The notes beneath the pieces are model-generated. The model did not search any database, was not told where the DNA came from, and saw nothing but the letters and a program-made list of their open reading frames with translations. A DNA stretch of 64,000 nucleotides from Terriglobia bacterium (lineage in GTDB: Bacteria > Acidobacteriota > Terriglobia > Bryobacterales > UBA6623): NCBI GenBank assembly GCA_009841225.1, contig VXMF01000009.1, positions 124,001-188,000 of the forward strand, written 5' to 3'. A program made the translations under genes and the position numbers. This document shows, one piece after another, positions 1,258 through 14,329 of this stretch. How positions within the stretch are numbered: position 1 is the stretch's first letter; every line of letters begins with the position of its first letter.

Positions 1258-4200
1258 CTAATTCGACTCGTGGGAAGCGATGTCTTCCAAGAGGCGCCGA
1301 GCGCGGCTGAACGTGTCGGTGCCGCCACCTTCGAATCCCGGCCATTCAAGCGTTCCATCCGGCTCGAAGCGGACACTCTTCGTGGCAGCCACGATGCGCA
1401 TCAGACGCTCCGCGCTGACCTTGGAGTCCTCTCGCAGCTTGATGACCAAGCGGTCACCGTGCCGCTCGATCAACGGGATACGCATAGCTTCCGCCCGGTG
1501 CTTGAGCAAGGCATGCGCCAACAGGTTATCGACTGCAGGCGGAAGCGGGCCATAGCGGTCTCGCAGTTCCGCCACGGCACGATCGCGATCGGCGTCGTCC
1601 CGCACCGCGGCAAGCCGCTTGTACAGCTGCAGCCGCTGTGTCTCTTCCGGCACGTAGCTGGCTGGGATGTGAAAGTCCAGGCGCAGCTTGACCTGGGTCC
1701 GAACTACGTCTTCAACCCGCTCGCCCCGCAGCTTGCGCACGGCCTCTTCGAGCAACTGCGTGTAAGTTTCGAAACCAACCGCCGCGACCTGGCCGCTCTG
1801 CTCCCCCCCGAGCAAGTTGCCGGCCCCCCGCAACTCTAGGTCGAGCGCGGCCATCTTGAAGCCTGCGCCCAGCTCGCTGAACTCCCGCAGGGCGGCCAGC
1901 CGCTTGCGGGCAACGTCGCTCAGTTCGCGCTCCGGCGGCACTAACAAGTACGCGTACGCACGCCGATTGGAGCGCCCCACGCGCCCGCGCAGCTGGTACA
2001 GCTCTGACAGCCCATAGAGATCTGCCCGGTCGACGACGATCGTGTTGGCCAGCGGAATGTCCAATCCATTCTCGACAATGGTCGTGGCCACCAGCACGTC
2101 GAAATCGTGGCGCATGAAGCCGAGCATGACTCGTTCGAGCTCGCGCTCGGCCATCTGGCCGTGCCCGACCCGAAAGCGCACGTCGGGAAGCGCAGCTGCC
2201 AGCCGGTCGGCCCTGGCTTGGATTGACTCCACGCGATTGTGGAGGAAATAGACCTGACCGCCGCGCCGGACCTCCCGCTGAATCGCAGTCGTCACCATGC
2301 GCTCGTCGTACTTGGACACGACCGTCTGGATCGCCAGGCGGTCCTGCGGCGGTGTCTTGATCACGGACACGTCGCGCAGGCCCATCAGCGACATGTAGAG
2401 CGTGCGCGGGATCGGAGTCGCCGTCATGGCCAGCACGTCGACGCTTTGACGAACCTGCTTGAGACGTTCCTTGTGGCGAACTCCGAAGCGCTGCTCCTCG
2501 TCAATGACGAGCAAGCCGAGGTCGCGGAACTCGACATCTTTGGACAGCAGCCGGTGCGTGCCGATGACGATGTCCACCGTGCCCTCGCGCAGGCGCCGAA
2601 TCGTCGACCGAATCTCCTTCGGTGTGCGAAACCGCGAGAGCATGTCAATCTCGACCGGGAACGCCGCGAAACGCTGTCGGAACGTCTCCAGGTGCTGGTA
2701 CGCCAGCACCGTGGTCGGCACCAGCACCGCGACCTGCTTGTCATCGCCCAACGCCTTGAACGCGGCCCGCATTGCCACCTCGGTCTTGCCGAAGCCCACG
2801 TCGCCGCATACCAAGCGGTCCATGATGCGGCTCGATTCCATGTCGTGCTTGATCTCTTTAGTGGCCGTCAACTGGTCTTCCGTCGGCTCGAACAAGAAGG
2901 AGTCCTCAAACTCCCTCTGCCAATTGCTGTCGGGCGAATATGCGAAATCCCGGCCCAGCTCGCGCTTGGCGTATAGCTCTAGCAGGTCATCAGCCATGTC
3001 GAGCAGGCGCGCCTTGACGCGCCGCTTGGTCTTCTCCCAGGTCTGGCCGCCCAGACGATCCAGCTGGGGCTTCGGACCTCCCGCTCCGTGATACTTGTGG
3101 ACCAAGTCCAAGCGCGTGAGCGGTACGTACAAGCGCGCCCCCTGGGCGTATTCGAGCAGCAGAAAATCTTCACTCCGGCCACCCGCCTCGACCTGCTGGA
3201 CGCCCAGGTACTGTCCCACGCCGTGCTGTGCGTGAACCACGGGGTCCCCCGCGCGCAAGTCCTCCAAGTCCGTGAGGAAGGCCGCGCTTGCGGCCTTGCG
3301 CGGGCCCGGCCGCGGAAGGCTCTCGGTGCTTCCAAAGACATCTTGGGTGCCGTAGATCGAAAGCCCCGATTCTGGCAGCAGGCAGCCGTGCGGGATCGAC
3401 GCCTTGACGATGATCGCCGACGCCACGTCGTCCGAGATGCCGGCCTTTTCCTCGAGTTGTCGGCTGAGACCCTCCGGCCGCTCCCGCAGCACGAGCTGGA
3501 AGGGCACCTCGTGCTCGCCGAACAGGTCGGCGAGACGCTCGAGGTCGCCGAGGGACGAAGCCGCCACCAGCACGCTGGAACGTTCCGCTATCTGGCCCCG
3601 GATCTCCTGCAGGCAATGGCCGATGTCGCCCTCAAAGCGCGGGACGGGCCGCGAGCGAACGTGCCAGGCCGCTTCCGCTTGGCCGAAAATCTCCGAACCT
3701 AGGTCCAGATCGTTCAGAACGACGAGCTTCCGCTGCCGTGCGGCATCCCGGAAGCCCTCGAATCCGAAGTAGTACGCGTCCGCGGGTTGCGCCTCCTCCG
3801 CGGGTTGCGCCTCCGCCGCGCGAGCCTCGTCCAAGCGCTCCCACAAAGCATCCGCTTCGCGCTCCAACGCTTGGGGCTGGTACGCGAGGACAGCGGCTCC
3901 GGGAAGCAGATCAAGCAATGAGGCCGACCGCCACTGCGGGCCGATCGCGCTGAATTCCCATCCGGGCGGCAACAAGCCCAGCCCGGAGCCGCCGGCAGGG
4001 TACTCCTGCATGGGAAGGACGTCGACCAGGTCGCGTGGTCGGATCGACTGCTGCGTGCGCGGGTCGAACTCGCGGAGCGACTCCACAGTGTCGCCAAGGA
4101 GCTGGAGCCTGCACGGATAGTCGGAGCCGGGGACGAACAAGTCGACGATGCCGCCCCGAACGGCGAACTGCCCAACCATCTCAACCGGCTCGTGCCGGCT

Positions 4201-4725
4201 GTAGCCGACCTCTGCTAACCGCTGGACAAGCTTCTCCAGAGGCCATTCCCCTCCGACCCGCACTTGCCAGGCCAGGCGACGGTACGAGTCGGGCGGGGCC
4301 ACCCGTTGCATCGCGGCGGCGATCGGCACGACAAGGATCGACACCCGCCGCTGGGCCATGCGCCACAACGCGATCGCACGGCTCTGCGCGATGTCAGGAT
4401 GTGGCGAGAGCCCGTCAAACGGGGTCACGTCATGGGCCGGCAACAAGCACGGGGCGAAGTCGCTCTCGTCGGCCCCGACCATCTCGAACCAGGCCGTGAT
4501 CGCCTCGTGCAAGGACTCGGCGTCCGCCTGGCTGCCGGTGACGACGAGCAGCGGCCGCCCGGCCTGCAGGCGCAAGACAACGGCATGGGCGGCGCAGGCG
4601 ACCTGGGACAGGCCCGAGATCTGCTGCAGGCAAGCTCCCCGCCGGCGCAGCGCCGCGACCACCTCCCGGACAGCCTGGTGCTGCCCCAGTCGTGCGAATC
4701 GGTCGCGCAGGCCGCGGGGTGTCAA
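1258..4725 (-). CDS. mfd: Transcription-repair coupling factor Mfd
   Basis: Mfd is an ATP-dependent DNA translocase that removes RNA polymerase stalled at lesions and recruits UvrA. At 1155 residues it is full length. A UvrB-like N-terminal module is followed by the RNA-polymerase-interacting region near residue 500 (VQHGVGQYLG), then the RecG-like motor with Walker A GDVGFGKTE near residue 642, DEEQRFGVRHKE near 742 and motif VI QLRGRVGRS. The C-terminal TRCF domain closes the protein. The apparent start is TTG at 4725, overlapping the TGA of the upstream rfaE2-like gene, so the two are probably translationally coupled; no Shine-Dalgarno is seen there. An 18-bp tandem duplication lies in the N-terminal half. 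Confidence 0.97.
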   Translation of the reverse strand: MTPRGLRDRFARLGQHQAVREVVAALRRRGACLQQISGLSQVACAAHAVVLRLQAGRPLLVVTGSQADAESLHEAITAWFEMVGADESDFAPCLLPAHDVTPFDGLSPHPDIAQSRAIALWRMAQRRVSILVVPIAAAMQRVAPPDSYRRLAWQVRVGGEWPLEKLVQRLAEVGYSRHEPVEMVGQFAVRGGIVDLFVPGSDYPCRLQLLGDTVESLREFDPRTQQSIRPRDLVDVLPMQEYPAGGSGLGLLPPGWEFSAIGPQWRSASLLDLLPGAAVLAYQPQALEREADALWERLDEARAAEAQPAEEAQPADAYYFGFEGFRDAARQRKLVVLNDLDLGSEIFGQAEAAWHVRSRPVPRFEGDIGHCLQEIRGQIAERSSVLVAASSLGDLERLADLFGEHEVPFQLVLRERPEGLSRQLEEKAGISDDVASAIIVKASIPHGCLLPESGLSIYGTQDVFGSTESLPRPGPRKAASAAFLTDLEDLRAGDPVVHAQHGVGQYLGVQQVEAGGRSEDFLLLEYAQGARLYVPLTRLDLVHKYHGAGGPKPQLDRLGGQTWEKTKRRVKARLLDMADDLLELYAKRELGRDFAYSPDSNWQREFEDSFLFEPTEDQLTATKEIKHDMESSRIMDRLVCGDVGFGKTEVAMRAAFKALGDDKQVAVLVPTTVLAYQHLETFRQRFAAFPVEIDMLSRFRTPKEIRSTIRRLREGTVDIVIGTHRLLSKDVEFRDLGLLVIDEEQRFGVRHKERLKQVRQSVDVLAMTATPIPRTLYMSLMGLRDVSVIKTPPQDRLAIQTVVSKYDERMVTTAIQREVRRGGQVYFLHNRVESIQARADRLAAALPDVRFRVGHGQMAERELERVMLGFMRHDFDVLVATTIVENGLDIPLANTIVVDRADLYGLSELYQLRGRVGRSNRRAYAYLLVPPERELSDVARKRLAALREFSELGAGFKMAALDLELRGAGNLLGGEQSGQVAAVGFETYTQLLEEAVRKLRGERVEDVVRTQVKLRLDFHIPASYVPEETQRLQLYKRLAAVRDDADRDRAVAELRDRYGPLPPAVDNLLAHALLKHRAEAMRIPLIERHGDRLVIKLREDSKVSAERLMRIVAATKSVRFEPDGTLEWPGFEGGGTDTFSRARRLLEDIASHESN
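3781..3816. repeat. 18-bp imperfect tandem duplication inside mfd
   Basis: Two adjacent 18-bp units (3781-3798 and 3799-3816) differ at one position. They keep the mfd frame and add an alanine/glutamate/glutamine/proline-rich repeat (AQPAEEAQPAD) in a linker of the UvrB-like N-terminal part. It looks like replication slippage tolerated in a non-conserved loop. Confidence 0.8.
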
Positions 4726-5198
4726 GTCGGGCGCATCCGGAGTATGTTGGCCACGAGATCAGTCGTCGAATACCCCGCCTCGACCGGAATCGCGAGCACC
4801 TGTCCGCCATGGCCCTCGACGATCTCTCGCCCGGCGATCCAGTGCGCCCAGTCCGCGCCCTTGACGAGCACATCCGGCAACAGCAGGCGTAGCAGCGCGT
4901 GCGGCGTCTCCTCGCCGAAGATCGTGACGGCATCGACGCAGGCGAATCCCGCCAGCGTGGCCGCGCGGTCCGCCTCCGACAGCACCGGCCGCGCCGCCCC
5001 TTTCAGGTCGCGCACGCTCCGGTCGGAGTTGATCGCCACGATCAACCGGTCGCCGTGCTCGCTGGCGCGCTCGAGCAGGCGCACGTGCCCAGGGTGCAGC
5101 AGGTCGAAACAGCCGTTGGTGAACACCACCCGCTCGCCGCTCGCCTTCCACTGCCGGCACAGCCGCACTGCGGCCTGCCGGTCCAGCACGACGCCCAT
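4722..5198 (-). CDS. rfaE2: D-glycero-beta-D-manno-heptose 1-phosphate adenylyltransferase (stand-alone RfaE domain II)
   Basis: This enzyme transfers AMP to heptose 1-phosphate in ADP-heptose synthesis for the LPS inner core. The 158-residue protein is only the nucleotidyltransferase half of HldE. It has the family signature TNGCFDLLHPGHVRLL near residue 27, the substrate loop LPDVLVKGADW near 108 and the tail YSTTDLVANI. The kinase half must be encoded elsewhere. The ATG at 5198 is preceded by the thpR stop 20 nt away, and the gene overlaps the mfd start. Together with kdsA and lolA it shows that this organism makes an LPS-type outer membrane. Confidence 0.93.
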   Translation of the reverse strand: MGVVLDRQAAVRLCRQWKASGERVVFTNGCFDLLHPGHVRLLERASEHGDRLIVAINSDRSVRDLKGAARPVLSEADRAATLAGFACVDAVTIFGEETPHALLRLLLPDVLVKGADWAHWIAGREIVEGHGGQVLAIPVEAGYSTTDLVANILRMRPT

Positions 5199-5217: not shown

Positions 5218-5811
5218 CTAGGCCCTCACTGCCACGCGCGAAGCGTAGTCCTTCGAGACCGGCATCTGATAGGGAAACTCCTCGATCTTGCGGTGGATCG
5301 GGCCGCTCTCGGTCAGTGAACTCCCGTACAGCGAGAATGAGTCCGGCTCGATGGCTCCGAAGTCGCGGGTGGGCAATTCCTCGATTGCCTCGTGCATTTC
5401 GGTCAGGTCGCACTCGCCACGCAAGCGTCCCAGGGTCAGGTGGGGCACGTAGGGCCGCACCTCTGGTGCGATGCCCAGGCGCGACAGGCGCGAGTCGACG
5501 TTGCTGGCCAGTTGGCGCAGTGGCGGCGTGTTCTCGGCGATCACCCAAAAGACCCGCGGGCTGCGCGGGTACGGGAAGAAACCGAGCCCGGCCAGCGGCA
5601 CCTTCACCTTGGCCTGGATCCGCACGCGGCTGAGCGTGTCGACCACCTCGTCGAGGCGGTCCTCGTCCCACTCGCCTATATACTTCAGCGTCACGTGCAT
5701 GTTGCGCGGATGGACCCAATGGATGGGGGCCATCGGCGCGAGACGACGCACCAATTCCGTCAGGTTGGCGACAACCTTCGTGTTCAGGTCGAGTGCAACA
5801 AACAAGCGCAT
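5218..5811 (-). CDS. thpR: RNA 2',3'-cyclic phosphodiesterase (LigT/ThpR family)
   Basis: This is a 2H-phosphoesterase that opens 2',3'-cyclic phosphates on RNA; some members were described as 2'-5' RNA ligases. The two HxTx catalytic motifs are present: HVTLKYIGE near residue 39 and HLTLGR near residue 132. The start MRLFVALDL is typical of the family and the length of 197 residues is normal. It sits between a small secreted protein gene and rfaE2 on the same strand with short gaps, probably as a passenger in the operon headed by the GWxTD gene. Confidence 0.92.
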   Translation of the reverse strand: MRLFVALDLNTKVVANLTELVRRLAPMAPIHWVHPRNMHVTLKYIGEWDEDRLDEVVDTLSRVRIQAKVKVPLAGLGFFPYPRSPRVFWVIAENTPPLRQLASNVDSRLSRLGIAPEVRPYVPHLTLGRLRGECDLTEMHEAIEELPTRDFGAIEPDSFSLYGSSLTESGPIHRKIEEFPYQMPVSKDYASRVAVRA

Positions 5812-5848: not shown

Positions 5849-6265
5849 CTATTCCTTGTGGACTGAGATCTGGTCCGAAGGGGGCTTCAAGATGATGGTT
5901 TCGGTTTGCTCGGGCTCGGTAAGCGCGACTTCTGCGCCGTGCGTCCGAAATCCCTTGCTGATGACTTGGATCAAGATCGGCCCGCGTGGAAGCGGCGGCA
6001 CCGGCGTGCTGCCCTCGTTGCTCGTTTTCAGCTCGAGGGCGGGGCTCTTCCGCTTCAGCTTCTTCTGCTTTCCCTTCAGCTGGCGGACGATCACGCTGGC
6101 GCGGGGCACCGGGCGGCCCCGCTCGTCCCTGACTAGGATCCGCAGGGTCGTCCATTCCTTGGCGGCTTGCAGCAGCCCCGCTCCCGGCAGGGCCGCAGCC
6201 AAGGCTGCCAAGGCACCTCGCCGGCTCAGCGAGCGCGCGAGGACAGAGTTCCGGAGTACAGACAC
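5849..6265 (-). CDS. Small exported protein with Tat-like signal and carboxypeptidase-regulatory-like fold
   Basis: This 138-residue protein starts with GTG at 6265, only 5 nt after the stop of the upstream barrel gene. Its N-terminus has a twin-arginine-like motif (LSRRGAL) followed by a hydrophobic Ala/Leu stretch ending near residue 34, so export as a folded protein is possible. The remainder contains RILVRDERGRPVPRASVIV, which resembles the first strands of the CarboxypepD_reg/CNA-B fold, then a lysine-rich insert and a second beta-rich half. I do not recognise a specific function. Tight spacing suggests it works with the barrel and the GWxTD protein. Confidence 0.72.
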   Translation of the reverse strand: MSVLRNSVLARSLSRRGALAALAAALPGAGLLQAAKEWTTLRILVRDERGRPVPRASVIVRQLKGKQKKLKRKSPALELKTSNEGSTPVPPLPRGPILIQVISKGFRTHGAEVALTEPEQTETIILKPPSDQISVHKE

Positions 6266-6270
6266 GGCGA

Positions 6271-8070
6271 TCAGAATATGTAACTCAGCGCTCCGGAATA
6301 GGTCCGGATCGCCTGCAATAGGTTCAGCACCCGCCCGTCGGGAACCTGCAGCGGCACATAGCCGGTCTTGAGCAGGTTGCGGAAGTCGGCGCTGGCCTCG
6401 AACTTGCCCGGCATACCCGCGACGCTGGGCAGCGGCTGGCGAAAGACCAGATTCAGCCCTGGGGCCGAGCGCGAGGCGAAATCATTGAACGGGTCGGCCG
6501 GCAAGACGGATTCCCGGCTGGACCACTGGTAGGAGCCCGTCATCACGGTTCTCGCGCCGGGCAACTCGGCCGACACGGAGGCCACCAGCATGTGGGCGCC
6601 CTGCGCCTCCAACACCTGCCGCAGCTCGTCTGACACGGCCGAGCGCAGCTGCGCCCGCGTGGGCGCCAGCACGCCGCCATAGCCGTACCCCAGTGCTGCC
6701 TGCAGGCGGTCGCGGATCTTGCGCGAGTACGAGACGCGCACGCCCGGAGTGCTGTAGTTGCCGCCATTGAGCGTCGCCGCTGACGAGTACAGGTCCGGCA
6801 CGACCTCGCCCTCCCCGAACAAGCCTTCGGGCACCGCCGCCGAGATGGCCGCGTCGCGGATCGAGTCGCGGTACACGGCAGCCTCCACCATGTTGTCCCC
6901 GAAGGTCTCTCGATATGCCACCTCGACGTGCTCGGAGCGCTGCACGGTCGGGCGCCCCTGCACAACCGCCACGCGCGGGAACATGCCGAGCTGGCGCACA
7001 TTGCTGCGCAGCGCCGCATCCTGGCCGAGCCGCGTCGCGGTCGGCGGAGGCACGCCAGAGGCGTAGCTGAAGGCCAGCTCGCGCTTCTGACCCAGCTTGT
7101 AGACCGCCTTGCCGTACGGGCTGGCGAAGTGCAGCCGATTGACGAAATTTACCGACTCGAAAAGCACCCCGTACTCAACCCGCAGCGAATCGGTCAATTC
7201 CACCGAGTCGCCGAATTCCAGCGAGAAGGTTTCCAAGCGCGGGATCCCCTGGCCGTCGTGCTGGGATCCGAACAAGCCCCGCGTGGCCGCCGAGGAAGCC
7301 TGCAGCTGGCGCACGGTCAGCGCCACCTCGGGCTTGGCCAAGCCGATCTCCTTGGCGTAGGTGGTGCGAAACGCGGTCGACCCGCCAGAAATGTCAGGCC
7401 TGCCAGCCCCGCTGCTGCCGCTCACCGTCAGGTCGTGGCTGCCAAACAGCGACGTCGCCACGGCGAAGGCGCTGCCCAGGTCCTGCTGGGCGTGCAGGCC
7501 ATTCGAGCGATTGCCCTGTCCGGCACTGAGCTCTGCGTAGGCGTGGGTGTCCTCGAAGGGGCCTTCGAGCTTGCGCAGGAAGCGCTCGCGCTCGTCATGC
7601 TCGGCGGGCGCCATGCGCAACACGTTCCGCCGGGAATGCTTGGCGCGCAACACCCATTTCCAGCGCTCGGACATGTCTCGGACCTGGCTGCCGTAGGCCA
7701 GCTGCAGGCTGGCGAACACGCCGCGCAGCGAAACGTCCAAGAAGGTCCGCTCGCCAGGCTCCACCGCCAGCTCGGCTTGGCGCACGAGCGAGAAATTGGC
7801 CTGGCGCACCTCGATCGCATACACGCCGGGGAAAAGGTCAACGAACTGGAACCAGCCCCGATAGTCGCTCTCAATGGTCTGCACGACACGGCCGTCGGCC
7901 GCAAGCAGGCTGACCGCAGCGCCCATCTGGGCGGTGCCGCCCTCGTCGCGGACCAGCCCGGCGATGCTCCCACCCACCTGGGCCGCAGCGGGCAGGCACA
8001 GCAGCCAGACTGCCAGGAGCCCGGCTCCGGCGAGGCGCGCTAGACCGAGCTGACGCATGGTGACTGGCAA
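6271..8070 (-). CDS. Outer-membrane beta-barrel protein with N-terminal carboxypeptidase-like domain and no TonB plug
   Basis: The 599-residue protein has a signal peptide ending near AAAQV, then a CarboxypepD_reg-like domain (about residues 34-115, GSIAGLVRDEGGTAQMGAAV). The rest is rich in alternating beta strands and ends in GALSYIF, with the terminal Phe typical of outer-membrane barrels. A TonB plug domain, as present in the two Oar-like receptors of this window, is not recognisable, and the protein is about half their size. The start is TTG at 8070 with an upstream AGGA, or ATG at 8058. It follows the GWxTD gene by 7 nt and precedes the Tat-like gene by 5 nt, so all three are probably co-transcribed. 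Confidence 0.78.
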   Translation of the reverse strand: MPVTMRQLGLARLAGAGLLAVWLLCLPAAAQVGGSIAGLVRDEGGTAQMGAAVSLLAADGRVVQTIESDYRGWFQFVDLFPGVYAIEVRQANFSLVRQAELAVEPGERTFLDVSLRGVFASLQLAYGSQVRDMSERWKWVLRAKHSRRNVLRMAPAEHDERERFLRKLEGPFEDTHAYAELSAGQGNRSNGLHAQQDLGSAFAVATSLFGSHDLTVSGSSGAGRPDISGGSTAFRTTYAKEIGLAKPEVALTVRQLQASSAATRGLFGSQHDGQGIPRLETFSLEFGDSVELTDSLRVEYGVLFESVNFVNRLHFASPYGKAVYKLGQKRELAFSYASGVPPPTATRLGQDAALRSNVRQLGMFPRVAVVQGRPTVQRSEHVEVAYRETFGDNMVEAAVYRDSIRDAAISAAVPEGLFGEGEVVPDLYSSAATLNGGNYSTPGVRVSYSRKIRDRLQAALGYGYGGVLAPTRAQLRSAVSDELRQVLEAQGAHMLVASVSAELPGARTVMTGSYQWSSRESVLPADPFNDFASRSAPGLNLVFRQPLPSVAGMPGKFEASADFRNLLKTGYVPLQVPDGRVLNLLQAIRTYSGALSYIF

Positions 8071-8077
8071 GACGTCC

Positions 8078-9727
8078 TCAGAGAACCTTGAACGTAGCGG
8101 TAGGCGCTAGGGATTCATTCTTAATGTCATCTTGCACAAGCAGGCTCAGGCGGTATTCGCCCGGCTCCAAGCTTTGCAAGGGCAGCAGCTTCTCGATCAC
8201 CACCTGTCGCGACGAAGCTCCGCGGATGGAGTTGACGTCCTCGGTGAAGTTGAGCAGCAGTTCGTCCGGGCTGTCGAGCCGGGCGATCTGATAGGTCACG
8301 TTGCCTGCTGGGCGACTGGTCTCCTCGCTCTGCCCGAGGTTGTAGATCTGCATGTAGATGCCCATCTTTTCGTCGCGCTTGAACGAATCGTCGATGCGCG
8401 GACGGACCTTGGAACTGCCGATCACGAACTGGCCGGTGCCCAGCGATCGGATCGGCACTCGCTCGATCTTGTCCGCGATGATCAGGGACGACGTTGCCAG
8501 AGCCTCGTCGTCGAACTCCGGCACCCGCAGCGCGGTGCGATACGTGCCCATCGTCTCGCCAACCAAGTCCTTGACCACCAGTTCCAGGCGGTACATGCCG
8601 GGCGCTAGCGGCACGGACTTGTTATAGACAGACGAGCGGCCCACCTCCTGATGCATGCGCTCGGCAGTGGTCTGGATGCTGACGGTCTCCTCGAAGGTCG
8701 ACTGCACCCGGCGCGTCATGGTGGTGATGCGGCCGAAAATGTTCGCGACCGCCTTGTGCAGGCCGCTCTCTTCCTTGAACAGCAGGTCCTCGTTGCGCAG
8801 CAGAACCGTGATGCCCGTCAAGACCGAGCTGTTGGTCACTCGAACGAAGTGGACATCGACGTCATACGACAGCGTGTTGTAGTCGATCGTGGAGTTGACG
8901 ATCGCCTCGAGATCCTTGAACTTCACCGCCGGGGGCTTGAAGATGTTGGCGTACAGCTGCAAGCGCTCGAACTGGTTGTAGCGGATCGACTGGGCACCGC
9001 CGATCGGGGTACCCATGCGCGTGCCGTCGGTGCGCCGGAACCGGTCGGCCTTGGTGGTCAGGCCCATCTGTTCCGACAGCGTCAGGCCCGCGCCCGGCAC
9101 GTTCAGCAGGGCGTCCTTCTCAGACGGGTCCATGGTGAGCCGGTACTCGCCGGTCATCGTCGGGTCGACGAATTCGAGCAAGATGTCGCTGCCGATCCCC
9201 TCGATCCAGCGGTAGCGCCAGATTTCGAACGGATAGGTCGAGGTGAAGCCGCCGCCCTCGTCGTAGGGCCGCTGGTACTGGCCCCCTGACGGATGGGACT
9301 CGATCTCGTCGGCCGGTCCGTACGCGATGTAGATGCGGCCGCGATCCGTCTTCCAGCCGGGAATGCCCGACGCGTACCGGTCATTGGCGTAAGCGATGCG
9401 TCGGTAGTGCTCTTCCTTGTACTCGTTCTCCATCGAGTCCGGGGTGGGGTCGCGCCGCATCCAGAACGATTCGATGAAGTTCTCGCGCTCCTCGTCGGTC
9501 GCCATCTGCACGAAGGCCTTGCGCTCCTCGGGCGTGATGATGTAGCGCACATCCTCGTCCAGCCAACGCTTGAACGGCCCGCGGAGCTCCTTGCGCAGCC
9601 TCTCGAGACGGCGCCGTTCCTGCTTGGCCGTGAGCTTGGCCGGTTCAGCAGCGTCCTGGGCAATCAGAGGAACCCCCAGCAGGCCCACTAGCAGGACCGC
9701 GATCCACGGTGAGATTCGGCTTCGCAT
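8078..9727 (-). CDS. GWxTD domain-containing secreted protein
   Basis: The GWxTD family is of unknown function and is common in Acidobacteriota. The 549-residue protein starts with a signal peptide (MRSRISPWIAVLLVGLLG) and then a charged Lys/Arg/Glu-rich helix. The defining motif is GIPGWKTDRGRIYIAYG near residue 145, followed by a long beta-rich C-terminal half. ATG 9727 is preferred over the upstream in-frame start at 9793 because it has AGGAGAA six bases upstream and begins directly with the signal peptide. A near-consensus sigma-70 promoter lies about 100 nt upstream. It is the first gene of a run of closely spaced genes on this strand. Confidence 0.88.
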   Translation of the reverse strand: MRSRISPWIAVLLVGLLGVPLIAQDAAEPAKLTAKQERRRLERLRKELRGPFKRWLDEDVRYIITPEERKAFVQMATDEERENFIESFWMRRDPTPDSMENEYKEEHYRRIAYANDRYASGIPGWKTDRGRIYIAYGPADEIESHPSGGQYQRPYDEGGGFTSTYPFEIWRYRWIEGIGSDILLEFVDPTMTGEYRLTMDPSEKDALLNVPGAGLTLSEQMGLTTKADRFRRTDGTRMGTPIGGAQSIRYNQFERLQLYANIFKPPAVKFKDLEAIVNSTIDYNTLSYDVDVHFVRVTNSSVLTGITVLLRNEDLLFKEESGLHKAVANIFGRITTMTRRVQSTFEETVSIQTTAERMHQEVGRSSVYNKSVPLAPGMYRLELVVKDLVGETMGTYRTALRVPEFDDEALATSSLIIADKIERVPIRSLGTGQFVIGSSKVRPRIDDSFKRDEKMGIYMQIYNLGQSEETSRPAGNVTYQIARLDSPDELLLNFTEDVNSIRGASSRQVVIEKLLPLQSLEPGEYRLSLLVQDDIKNESLAPTATFKVL

Positions 9728-9820
9728 CGATTCTCCTGCACTGTCCGGTCGAGTCCGCTCAGGTTGCTCGTAGAGCAATCCCGCCGGACGCAACGGCCTC
9801 CATATTCTGTCTCAGGATCA

Positions 9821-9849
9821 ATTCTAGTGCCTTCCTTGACGTTGGTCAA
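9821..9849 (-). promoter_or_regulatory. Sigma-70 promoter for the GWxTD operon
   Basis: On the minus strand TTGACC (9844-9849) and TAGAAT (9821-9826) are separated by 17 nt. An 8-bp palindrome TTCGCGAA (9856-9863), embedded in two GCGAATT direct repeats, lies immediately upstream of the -35 and could be an operator. The region 9728-9981 has no other gene. Confidence 0.7.
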
Positions 9850-9981: not shown

Positions 9982-11661
9982 TCAAGGCCCGGGCGGGCCC
10001 CCGAAACCGAGCACAAGGACGGTCAGGTCGTCCGCCCGTGAGGCATCGCGCCCAAATTCGGCCACCCGGGCGAGCAGAGCGTCGAAGAAGTCGCCTGTGT
10101 CCAGCCCCGCAAGCTGGGAAACGGCCTCGATCAGCCGCTGCTCTCCGTACAGCTCGGAGCGGCTGTTGCGCAGCTCAGTGACTCCGTCGCTGTACATGAC
10201 CAGCTTGTCTCCCGGCTCCAGACGACAGACGCTCTCGGGGAACTCGGCATCCTCGAACAGCCCGATCGGCTGACTGGTCGGAGCCAGCAGCTGGCAGCGC
10301 CCGGTCGGACGCACCAAGATCGCGGGGCAATGTCCGGCGCTGCTCCAGCGCATCGTCGCGTCCTCGGCGATGGTGGCTGCGAACACGGTCGCAAAGTGTG
10401 CCCGATCCGACCGCTCGCAGAGATAGCGGTTGATGCGCCGCAGCGTGCCGGACAGCGAAACGTCCGGACCCGATCCAAGGAAGAAGGCTCCCTGTAGCGA
10501 CGAGGCCAGGATCGAAGCCGAAGCGCCCTTTCCGGAGACATCGGCCAGCACAGCCGCCCAGCGTCCCGGCGCGACCTGCATCAGGTCATAGTAGTCGCCC
10601 CCCAGTTGCGAGCTGGCCTCGCTGTGCCCCTTGGCCACCAACCAGCCCTCGCTGGGAAGCGTTCTCGGCAGCAGGGAGCGCTGGATGCCGCGAGCCATGT
10701 CGAGCTCGTGCTCGAGGCGGCGCTTCTGGCGCTCCTCCTCGATCAGCCGGGCGTTCTCGACGCTGGTCGAGATCTCGATCGCCAAGGCGTGCAATAGCGC
10801 CTGGTTGCCCTCCGCCAGCCGGAGTTCGGGGTTCGCCGCGTCCATGTACAGCACGCCCAATGTGTCGTCCTTCGCCGAGATCACGCTCGTTTCGTGGTCC
10901 AGCCCGATCCGCATGCGCAAGATCGGAATGCACAGCGAAGCATGCAAAGCGTCCCCGGCGCTACCGCCTCCCTGCGTCAGATCGACACTCATTGCGAACA
11001 GGTCTGAACGTCGCTCAAGCGCGTCGGCAATACGCGCCAGCGGCAGCTCCGGCTGTGCGGGGCTGTCGCGCTCCCCGGACGCCTGGCGTGCCACCTTGAC
11101 CTCCAACCGGCCGCTGGGGTCGCGCAGCAGCAGGAAGGCACGGTCGGCGTGGGCGATCGACAGCGCGGCCTCCACGACCGCCTCGAAGACCTCTTCCACG
11201 CCGCTGGCGAGCTCCATCGTGCGAGCGACTTCCAGCACCGCCGAGAGCCGCCCCAACGCCCCGGTCCGGCGGGGCCCCGCACCGATCTCGGAAACCTGTT
11301 TGAGCAGCCTCGTCTGCGGGCTCCGGGCCTCGCAGACCGTGATCACGTAGGAGCCCTCGATCCCGAAGCCGATGCGGTCGCCGACGGCCAGCCGGCTGTG
11401 CCGCACGGACTCGCCGTTGACGACGGTCCCGTGGCGGCTGCCGAGGTCTTCTATGGCGAAGCCGCCCTGCTCCAGGCACAACTGGGCGTGGCGGCGAGAT
11501 ATCCGCTTGTCGGCCAGCGTCAGATCGCAGTCATTCAGGCGCCCTATGACGAACGGGCTGCGCTTGACCGGAATCTGCAGGCACTCTCCGGAGGGCGGCT
11601 CCACAAGCAACGACAGGGGCGGAAGTGAATCGCCCGCGTCTGCGCCTTGGGATGCGTCCAT
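9982..11661 (-). CDS. FHA-GAF-PP2C (SpoIIE-type) serine/threonine phosphatase
   Basis: This is a cytoplasmic signalling phosphatase of 559 residues in three parts. The FHA phosphothreonine-binding domain spans roughly residues 30-110 (IGRLNDCDLTLADKRISRRH and GSRHGT). A GAF sensor domain follows at about 145-320. The C-terminal PP2C/SpoIIE domain (about 340-555) has the metal ligands in GGDYYD and ADVSGKG, plus SSAGHCPA and YSDGVTELRN. It usually opposes a serine kinase acting on an anti-sigma-factor antagonist or another FHA ligand, but no partner kinase or STAS protein is in the window. It lies 18 nt downstream of the Fur-type gene on the same strand. ATG 11661 has no clear Shine-Dalgarno. 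Confidence 0.9.
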   Translation of the reverse strand: MDASQGADAGDSLPPLSLLVEPPSGECLQIPVKRSPFVIGRLNDCDLTLADKRISRRHAQLCLEQGGFAIEDLGSRHGTVVNGESVRHSRLAVGDRIGFGIEGSYVITVCEARSPQTRLLKQVSEIGAGPRRTGALGRLSAVLEVARTMELASGVEEVFEAVVEAALSIAHADRAFLLLRDPSGRLEVKVARQASGERDSPAQPELPLARIADALERRSDLFAMSVDLTQGGGSAGDALHASLCIPILRMRIGLDHETSVISAKDDTLGVLYMDAANPELRLAEGNQALLHALAIEISTSVENARLIEEERQKRRLEHELDMARGIQRSLLPRTLPSEGWLVAKGHSEASSQLGGDYYDLMQVAPGRWAAVLADVSGKGASASILASSLQGAFFLGSGPDVSLSGTLRRINRYLCERSDRAHFATVFAATIAEDATMRWSSAGHCPAILVRPTGRCQLLAPTSQPIGLFEDAEFPESVCRLEPGDKLVMYSDGVTELRNSRSELYGEQRLIEAVSQLAGLDTGDFFDALLARVAEFGRDASRADDLTVLVLGFGGPPGP

Positions 11662-11679: not shown

Positions 11680-12192
11680 TTAGAGTGCTTCGGCCGCGCT
11701 GGCCGCCCCAGCTCGCGACGCGACCGCCGGGGCCTCGCCGAGGCCGCTCTTCTGGCAGTCCGCGCAATACCCGCCGACCTCGGTGCGTGCGACCGCGACC
11801 TTGAAGCCGAACTGCGTCTCGATTTGGGCCCTCATTTCCCGGAGCGGATCGCCGAAGTATTCCGACACCGCGCCGCAGCTCATGCAGACGAGGTGGGCGT
11901 GCTCGCGCTTGAGGCGAGTTTCGTAATAGTGCTGCTCGCCCTCATAGTGCATCAGGTCCAGCTCGTCGACCAAGCCCTGCTCCTTGAGCACCTTGAGGGT
12001 GCGATAGACCGTGACTTGATTGATCTTGGGGTCTTCCTTGGCGGCCAGTTCATAGATCTCGTGCGCGTTCAGATGCGTGCGCGAATTGTGGATCAGGCGG
12101 AAGACCAACTCCCTCTGGCGCGTGAGCCGCAGGCCCCGACGACGCAAGGTCTCGAGTGGGTTCGATTCGAGCTGCTCGCGGGCCACAGGCAT
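11680..12192 (-). CDS. Fur-family metal- or peroxide-responsive transcriptional regulator
   Basis: This is a winged-helix repressor. LRLTRQRELVFRLI and HLNAHEIYELA form the DNA-binding domain, with the recognition-helix segment INQVTVYRTLKVL. The dimerisation domain carries REHAHLVC and two CxxC pairs (CMSC and CADC) that build the structural zinc site. With 170 residues it is slightly longer than E. coli Fur because of an alanine-rich tail. Sequence alone does not separate Fur, PerR and Zur. The start is taken as ATG 12192; an in-frame TTG at 12195 is also possible. It is followed by the phosphatase gene. Confidence 0.9.
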   Translation of the reverse strand: MPVAREQLESNPLETLRRRGLRLTRQRELVFRLIHNSRTHLNAHEIYELAAKEDPKINQVTVYRTLKVLKEQGLVDELDLMHYEGEQHYYETRLKREHAHLVCMSCGAVSEYFGDPLREMRAQIETQFGFKVAVARTEVGGYCADCQKSGLGEAPAVASRAGAASAAEAL

Positions 12193-12284
12193 CAATCTAG
12201 CACACAGTCAGGCCGCGCGAGCCCAAGCGGTCGAAGTTCGAAAAGACTTCGGGCTAGACTAAAGGAACCACCCGTTCTTGACGT

Positions 12285-12361
12285 CGGGCCGTGGCGCAGC
12301 CTGGTAGCGCGCTTCCTTGGGGTGGAAGAGGTCCCGAGTTCAAATCTCGGCGGCCCGACCA
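12285..12361 (+). tRNA. tRNA-Pro (anticodon GGG), CCA encoded
   Basis: The acceptor stem CGGGCCG/CGGCCCG, the anticodon arm CTTCC-TTGGGGT-GGAAG with anticodon GGG, and the T arm CCGAG-TTCAAAT-CTCGG all pair. Discriminator A and an encoded CCA end the gene. A TAGACT hexamer at 12255-12260 could be its -10. The accessory island with sulfatases begins right after this tRNA. Confidence 0.97.
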
Positions 12362-12553
12362 ATCTCGCGAACCGAACTGATGCTGACATGGCCGGGCAGG
12401 CCGGCCCTGACTCGCAGCAAGCGGGCCCAGCCTGAGGCCGCAGGCCCGGACTTACCGAGCGCTCCGCCATCTTCTGGGGCAGCGCTTGTGCGACGATTTG
12501 ATCTAGCACCCGCCAGACGCTGGTGCGTCCCCGAAACCATGCGGAGAACTTCC

Positions 12554-14329
12554 ATGCGCGCGATCGTTGCATTTCCCGTCCTTGCCACAGCGGCACTGCT
12601 CTGCTCCGGCTGCAGCTCCGGCGAGCGCCGCTCCGAGCAGCCGCCGAACGTCGTCGTGATTCTGGCCGACGACCAGGGCTGGGGTGACCTCAGCCTGCAC
12701 GGCAACACGAACCTGTCCACTCCGAACATCGACTCGCTGGCGCATGACGGCGCGATGTTCGAGCACTTCTACGTCAACTCTGTGTGCGCGCCGACGCGAG
12801 CAGAGTTCCTGACCGGGCGCTACCACGGGCGCGGCGGGGTGCGGGGAGTTTCCACGGGGCAAGAACGGCTCAACGCCGACGAGCACACGATCGCCCAGAC
12901 CTTCCAAGCCGCCGGCTATGCCACCGGCGCGTTCGGCAAATGGCACAACGGAACGCAGCACCCGTACCATCCCAACGCGCGCGGGTTCGAGGAGTTCTAC
13001 GGATTCACGGAAGGGCACTGGGGCCACTATTTCGACTACGAGCTGGACCACAACGGCAAGCTGGTGCGCGGGGAGGGGTACGTAATCGACGACTTCACCA
13101 ACAAGGCGATGAACTTCATGGAGCAGAACCGCGACCGCCCGTTCTTCGCCTACCTGCCCTACAACACGCCGCACTCTCCCATGCAGGTGCCGGACGAGTA
13201 CTGGCAGCGCTTCGAATCCAAGGAATTGGCCATGCGCAACCGCGACCCCGAATCCGAGGACGTGCCCAAGACGCGCGCAGCCCTAGCCATGGTGGAGAAC
13301 ATCGACTGGAATGTCGGGCGGGTGCTGTCGAAGCTGGACGAGCTAGGCATCGCCGAGAACACCGTCGTGCTCTATTTCAGCGACAACGGCCCCAACAGCT
13401 GGCGCTGGAACGCGGGCATGAAGGGGCGCAAGGGATCCGTTGACGAGGGCGGCCTGCGCTCGCCGCTGCTGGTCCGGTGGCCGGGGCAGATCCCGGCCGG
13501 GCAGCGCATCTCCAACGTGGCCGGGGCGATCGATCTGCTCCCCACCCTGTCGGACCTGGCCGGAATCGAGGTCGGAGCCACGAAGCCGCTTGACGGGCGC
13601 AGCCTGGTGCCGTTGCTGCGCGGGCAGGAGGGCCAGTGGGAAGACCGGATGCTGTTCTCGCTGCGCAGTGCGCGCGGCCAGCTGCAGCTCAGCATTCGCA
13701 CCCAGCGCTTCCGGCTCGACTCCGAAGGGCGACTGTTCGATATCGAGAACGATCCCGGGCAGCATAGCGATGCGGCGGATCAGTTCCCCGAGGAGGCAGA
13801 ACGGCTCCGCGCGGCCGCCAAGGAGTGGCTGGCGGAGGTCGCCCCCAACGTAGGACCGGATGACCGACCCTTCCCGGTTGGCCATGCGCCGATGACGCTG
13901 CTGCCAGCCCGCGACGGCGTGCCGCACGGCGGGGTCAAGCGCAGCGGGCGCGCGCCGAACTGCTCGTACTTCACGAACTGGACGAGCACCTCCGACAGCA
14001 TCACCTGGGACATCGAGGTCGCCGAACCCGGCGAGTACGAACTCGCGGTCTACTATGCGGCACCCACCGCCGGCTCGACCATCGAGGCATCGTTTGGGGA
14101 CGTCACCATCCGGGGACAGGTAATCGAGGCCCACGATCCGCCGGCCTACGGCTCTGAGGCCGACCGCGTTTGGCGCGGCCTGGGCGAGTCTCTTGTGAAG
14201 GACTTCCGCATGCAGTCCCTAGGCACGGCGGAATTCCCAGCCGCTCGAGGCGCGCTGACGCTGCGAGCGCTCGATGTGGCGGGAGAGCAAGTCGCCGAGA
14301 TTCGCTACGCCGTGCTCAACCGGCTGTAG
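12554..14329 (+). CDS. Sulfatase lipoprotein with extra C-terminal beta-sandwich-like domain
   Basis: This is a type I (formylglycine) sulfatase that hydrolyses sulfate esters, probably from a polysaccharide. The 591-residue protein has a lipoprotein signal (LLCSGC, lipidated Cys near residue 20), the metal site VVVILADDQGWGD and the formylglycine signature CAPTR with Cys78 followed by LTGR. GKWH, SPMQ and FSDNGPN complete the active site. After about residue 450 there are some 130 extra residues (NWTSTSDSITWDIEVAEPGE), resembling a carbohydrate-binding beta-sandwich. Start: ATG 12554 has GGAGA seven bases upstream; ATG 12539 is in frame but lacks one. It converges on the CRTAC1 gene with a 35-nt gap. 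Confidence 0.92.
   Translation: MRAIVAFPVLATAALLCSGCSSGERRSEQPPNVVVILADDQGWGDLSLHGNTNLSTPNIDSLAHDGAMFEHFYVNSVCAPTRAEFLTGRYHGRGGVRGVSTGQERLNADEHTIAQTFQAAGYATGAFGKWHNGTQHPYHPNARGFEEFYGFTEGHWGHYFDYELDHNGKLVRGEGYVIDDFTNKAMNFMEQNRDRPFFAYLPYNTPHSPMQVPDEYWQRFESKELAMRNRDPESEDVPKTRAALAMVENIDWNVGRVLSKLDELGIAENTVVLYFSDNGPNSWRWNAGMKGRKGSVDEGGLRSPLLVRWPGQIPAGQRISNVAGAIDLLPTLSDLAGIEVGATKPLDGRSLVPLLRGQEGQWEDRMLFSLRSARGQLQLSIRTQRFRLDSEGRLFDIENDPGQHSDAADQFPEEAERLRAAAKEWLAEVAPNVGPDDRPFPVGHAPMTLLPARDGVPHGGVKRSGRAPNCSYFTNWTSTSDSITWDIEVAEPGEYELAVYYAAPTAGSTIEASFGDVTIRGQVIEAHDPPAYGSEADRVWRGLGESLVKDFRMQSLGTAEFPAARGALTLRALDVAGEQVAEIRYAVLNRL

Follow-up and report, generated by a model that had tools for sequence, protein, structure and literature searches.

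Gene run and promoter

In the 64,000-nt stretch of DNA analysed here (the window), a run of minus-strand genes begins with a gene for a GWxTD protein and continues through genes for a predicted outer-membrane barrel, a small CarboxypepD_reg-like protein, ThpR, an RfaE2-like adenylyltransferase and Mfd (Table 1). The gaps of 7 and 5 nt given in the earlier note for the first three genes are both confirmed; the first applies to a TTG start of the barrel gene and becomes 19 nt if the barrel ATG at 8058 is used instead. The same note placed these three packed genes in one transcription unit. The packing is as described, but the run does not end there: ThpR, probably a downstream gene of the same run, follows after 37 nt with no terminator seen in that gap, the RfaE2-like gene follows ThpR after 19 nt, and the RfaE2-like and Mfd genes overlap by 4 nt. 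The RfaE2-like protein scores just below the TIGR02199 cut-off (176.2 versus 181.5).

Table 1. Features of the GWxTD gene run, numbered from the first position of the window
Feature	Position	Strand	Basis
Sigma-70-type promoter, TTGACC-17-TAGAAT	9849-9821	-	10/12 consensus matches; footprint in relatives
GWxTD protein, 549 aa from ATG	8078..9727	-	Signal peptide and GWxTD domain, followed by two beta-sandwiches
Plugless outer-membrane barrel (predicted), 599 aa	6271..8070	-	PF13620, AlphaFold model, family profiles
Small secreted CarboxypepD_reg-like protein, twin-arginine-type leader	5849..6265	-	PF13620 below cut-off; family alignment
ThpR, RNA 2',3'-cyclic phosphodiesterase	5218..5811	-	TIGR02258, 4.4e-43
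RfaE domain II / HldE C-terminal-like adenylyltransferase	4722..5198	-	TIGR02199, 3.2e-52
Mfd-like transcription-repair coupling factor	1258..4725	-	Named by sequence, not profile; orthologous group c7 in genus loci

The GWxTD reading frame extends over 8078-9793 when opened at TTG, its first start codon. The ATG at 9727 is the likely start, because a GGAG kept in relatives lies upstream of it and the signal peptide begins there (MRSRISPWIAVLLVGLLGVPLIAQ).

A near-consensus promoter had been proposed for the run, and the proposal stands. A single site with 10/12 matches is not rare alone (one in a consensus scan of 7 kb against 0.6 expected), but sites of at least 10/12 stand 5' of GWxTD in 52 of 99 Terriglobia loci, where 0.8 would be expected, and the pattern TTGACN-17-TANNNT does so in 40 of the 99 against 0.1 expected. 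These loci are interrelated and include some duplicates, so the counts are not independent; the footprint is nonetheless clear. In aligned upstream regions of relatives, the hexamers are kept while the flanking sequence diverges. We regard the promoter as real because the same hexamers recur 5' of GWxTD in these loci, and a chance origin is ruled out by the footprint.

Directly upstream of the run are genes for an FHA-GAF-SpoIIE phosphatase (9982-11661, minus strand) and a Fur-family regulator (11680-12195, minus strand), and their synteny with the run is kept across the genus. Beyond them lie a tRNA-Pro (ggg; 12285-12361, plus strand) and a sulfatase-like ORF, named by eye from its sequence (12317-14329, plus strand), whose called start overlaps the tRNA, so that the true start must be further in.

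The three encoded proteins

The GWxTD protein is over the cut-off in both profile libraries (TIGR04514, E=1.4e-35, 122 bits versus 28; PF20094, E=1e-13, 51.9 bits versus 26.9). It contains the motif itself (GIPGWKTDRGRIYI), of which G124, W125 and D128 are invariant across 29 aligned proteins, and its full-length relatives share 38-49% identity phylum-wide. The domain family has no known function, and no paper in the literature collection searched mentions GWxTD; in the present case, its gene is fixed to a barrel gene. The predicted signal peptide fits the expectation for a periplasmic partner. An AlphaFold model (pLDDT 76) consists of a mixed N-terminal region and two beta-sandwiches, which match solved folds in VIA-align at Z about 9.5-10 over residues 270-549 only; the C-terminal sandwich is similar to RbmA and to the WzmWzt carrier domain (Z about 9.5). 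The GWxTD profile had no significant match by sequence among solved structures.

GWxTD proteins occur in 219 of the 297 phylum genomes sampled, with at least 15 per genome in G048, G064, G090, G144 and G212. There are also short proteins that have a signal peptide and the GWxTD domain only, ending near a common domain boundary (L062:11557-12267, minus strand; L064:5564-6496, plus strand; L002 from 1330, plus strand). Those of L062 and L064 are encoded just upstream of a full-length GWxTD gene, and the L002 protein is an additional copy within the genome that the window comes from.

The barrel protein comprises a signal peptide, a CarboxypepD_reg domain (aa 35-115), a linker (aa 120-169) and a predicted 18-strand barrel (aa 170-599). 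Its description in the earlier note, as a barrel that has a CarboxypepD_reg domain and lacks a TonB plug, is borne out by profiles and by structure prediction alike. PF13620 is over its cut-off, and the domain is kept in 32/32 aligned relatives. Plug-family matches were absent from the window's barrel protein (E up to 1) and from all 32 family members (E up to 0.01). The AlphaFold model (pLDDT 82) predicts 18 long strands after residue 170, running to the C-terminus, and contains no plug. Model confidence in the linker is very low, yet this stretch contains a conserved WKWxLR...RPxLR motif in which R142 is invariant and R148 is conserved across the phylum.

The nearest solved folds to the barrel model in VIA-align are the 18-strand Occ porins, Wzi and AlgE (Z 15-17, rmsd 4-5 over 250-300 residues, with the top-ranked ones at Z 16-17 and rmsd about 4-4.5); TonB receptors, Tom40 and VDAC also reach Z about 15. 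A Foldseek ranking that placed TonB receptors first was set aside in favour of VIA-align, since its TM-scores were only 0.3. Occ/OprD, AlgE and Wzi may share the predicted strand number and overall barrel with our protein, but it has no detectable sequence relation to them, carries an extra periplasmic domain and linker, and has no biosynthesis or capsule genes nearby. A profile search of the barrel part against solved structures gave no significant match.

Oar-type TonB-dependent receptors likewise have a periplasmic CarboxypepD_reg domain ahead of their outer-membrane barrel, and the protein could have arisen from such a receptor by loss of the plug. The CarboxypepD_reg domain in all members, weak matches to PF00593 in six of the 32 relatives and the Z-scores of TonB receptors speak for such an ancestry. 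We nevertheless consider it doubtful, as 18 strands rather than 22 are predicted. Our barrel is also about half as long and falls below the PF00593 cut-off (23.2 bits versus 27). Compared by profile with two CarboxypepD TonB-receptor-like proteins of the same phylum, it gave a probability of 2%, a value that is weak either way with an alignment of two receptors. This question concerns origin only and is compatible with any of the functions considered below.

The small third protein reaches 25.3 bits for PF13620 against a cut-off of 32.3 and begins with a twin-arginine-type leader (SRRGALAALAAALPGAGLLQA). The Tat-like character noted earlier holds for this protein and most members (leaders of the window's genus, L066 and L069 contain RR), but not for two genera, where the leader is Sec-type without RR (L067, L068). 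Conservation of all three genes across Acidobacteriota, which the earlier note had proposed to check, was not found: the third gene stands beside the other two only in the window's family.

Conservation and gene context of the GWxTD-barrel pair

The other two genes behave differently from the third. GWxTD and barrel adjoin on one strand, with GWxTD first, in 105 of 106 Terriglobia loci (102 with the barrel on the same strand and 3 with the barrel cut by a contig end and found by tblastn; some of the 106 are one genome present in two collections). The sole true exception has GWxTD without the barrel (L210), and in one locus the barrel is split over two frames (L150). Each of the 41 genomes of the order (41/41) has one full-length barrel orthologue, and related named records come from Bryobacterales and other Terriglobia MAGs. 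The expectation that the genes would be neighbours in other genomes is therefore correct for Terriglobia; outside this class, the two genes usually co-occur but are unlinked. Among 119 phylum genomes outside Terriglobia, 33 have both, 3 have only a long GWxTD protein, 0 have only the barrel and 83 have neither (thresholds E 1e-90 and 1e-40; 13 families with both; compiled by hand and uncorrected for phylogeny). This co-occurrence may partly reflect shared ancestry.

The link between the two genes is not absolute, because two genomes have GWxTD without the barrel and two have the barrel without GWxTD. In addition to L210, G312 keeps GWxTD and has purF (named by sequence) in place of the barrel, whereas G314 and G265 retain the barrel and the kinase with no GWxTD detected, G265 being 77% complete. 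An apparent joint loss in G152 was discarded as evidence, since its contig ends within the adaptor gene next to this position.

Could the pair consist of a general porin and an unrelated exported protein that simply share a transcript? Such a lack of shared function would fit the splitting of the pair in other classes, the single losses just described and the presence of the unrelated ThpR and Mfd in the same run. We consider it unlikely, since the adjacency persists class-wide while flanking genes change and the two genes co-occur even where they are unlinked.

A second association involves the barrel alone. Outside Terriglobia, the barrel gene lies directly upstream, on the same strand, of a PDZ histidine kinase gene in 44 genomes (diverged barrels included), and in most of the loci examined a sigma-54 response regulator then follows. 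The kinase contains PDZ, GAF, PAS, HisKA and HATPase domains and several predicted TM segments. This kinase-regulator pair neighbours the barrel gene in most of the other classes and the GWxTD-barrel pair in some Bryobacterales; in about 14 loci of the latter order, some duplicated between collections, it is divergent from GWxTD-barrel, and these loci tie the two gene contexts together. Across the order, 39 of 41 genomes have a single copy of the kinase; the genome that contains the window carries it on a different contig from GWxTD-barrel.

About 39% of the regions 5' of the kinase have sigma-54-like sites with at least 9/11 matches, compared with 2.5% in shuffles, which suggests that the kinase genes are autoregulated. 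Sites resembling TGGCAC-N5-TTGC occur 5' of the kinase in L092, L093, L095, L098, L100 and L101. There is no such enrichment 5' of GWxTD or the barrel, and a sigma-54 promoter for either gene was dropped from consideration.

Possible functions of the module

The GWxTD-barrel adjacency, together with the tie between barrel and kinase, points to a core, hitherto unstudied cell-envelope module. We give about an even chance to a model in which GWxTD and barrel are two parts of one such Acidobacteriota module, monitored by the PDZ kinase. The predicted 18-strand, plugless barrel would sit in the outer membrane, with its CarboxypepD_reg domain and arginine/tryptophan linker extending into the periplasmic space. 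There, the GWxTD protein, which is predicted to be exported, would bind the barrel through its strongly conserved GWKTDRGRIYI face and its beta-sandwich domains, and the kinase and sigma-54 regulator would read the state of the module across the periplasm. A fixed partner for GWxTD in one class and a kinase-linked barrel elsewhere provide the first testable handle on GWxTD function, and the module may likewise be a handle on how Acidobacteriota run their outer membrane.

The arrangement could instead be a secretion or assembly complex, as first suggested for this locus, with the barrel acting as an open exit pore and GWxTD as a periplasmic chaperone or adaptor feeding it, in a manner functionally like AlgE-type export. 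The likeness of the barrel model to Occ, AlgE and Wzi and of the C-terminal beta-sandwich to RbmA and the WzmWzt carrier domain are consistent with export, as are the HlyD/RND-type adaptor and ABC ATPase genes that lie divergent to the pair in the sister family (family f4, L079-L086). We nonetheless hold this function to be somewhat improbable. Fold likeness at such a level is common for beta-sandwiches and barrels, no biosynthesis genes accompany the pair, and the ABC neighbours are found in one family only.

Given the link between barrel and PDZ kinase, sensing is no less likely than secretion, and that link is a stronger clue than the fold likeness to AlgE, Wzi and Occ. In a purely sensory module, which we likewise hold to be somewhat improbable, the barrel would serve as a sentinel in the outer membrane, and the kinase would use its periplasmic PDZ domain to read the state or the C-terminus of the barrel, with GWxTD as a modulator. 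The adjacency in 44 genomes, the mostly single-copy kinase with its PDZ domain, the sigma-54-like sites before the kinase gene and the F or Y with which most barrels end all argue in this direction. A precedent is the outer-membrane lipoprotein QseG, which controls QseE in a system with a sigma-54 regulator (PMC6075780). As in QseE-QseG-QseF, the genes for a histidine kinase and a sigma-54 regulator are accompanied by one for an outer-membrane component, a functional likeness rather than homology. There are differences as well: QseG is a lipoprotein and not a barrel, the Qse system is not known to include a GWxTD protein, and the kinase in Acidobacteriota has a PDZ domain and several predicted TM segments. 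Weighing against sensing are the lack of sigma-54 enrichment before GWxTD or the barrel, the unlinked kinase in the window's genus and the many genomes that keep the kinase without a detected strong barrel; the periplasmic location of the PDZ domain is itself an inferred one. For the barrel module, we lean slightly toward a monitored conduit over a pure sensor.

Monitoring by the kinase could also be extended to a phylum-wide surveillance of the envelope, with the barrel as sentinel, GWxTD as periplasmic adaptor and the PDZ kinase as reader of the barrel, possibly of its C-terminus upon failed assembly, and as driver of a sigma-54 regulon. We think this extension quite improbable. If it were true, the module would do in this phylum what DegS-sigma-E does in E. 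coli.

A further gene neighbourhood concerns GWxTD without the barrel. In 9 of 20 loci outside Terriglobia (L212, L213, L218, L222, L223, L224, L225, L227 and L228), the GWxTD gene comes immediately after tatA-tatC in the same orientation (PF02416, PF00902).
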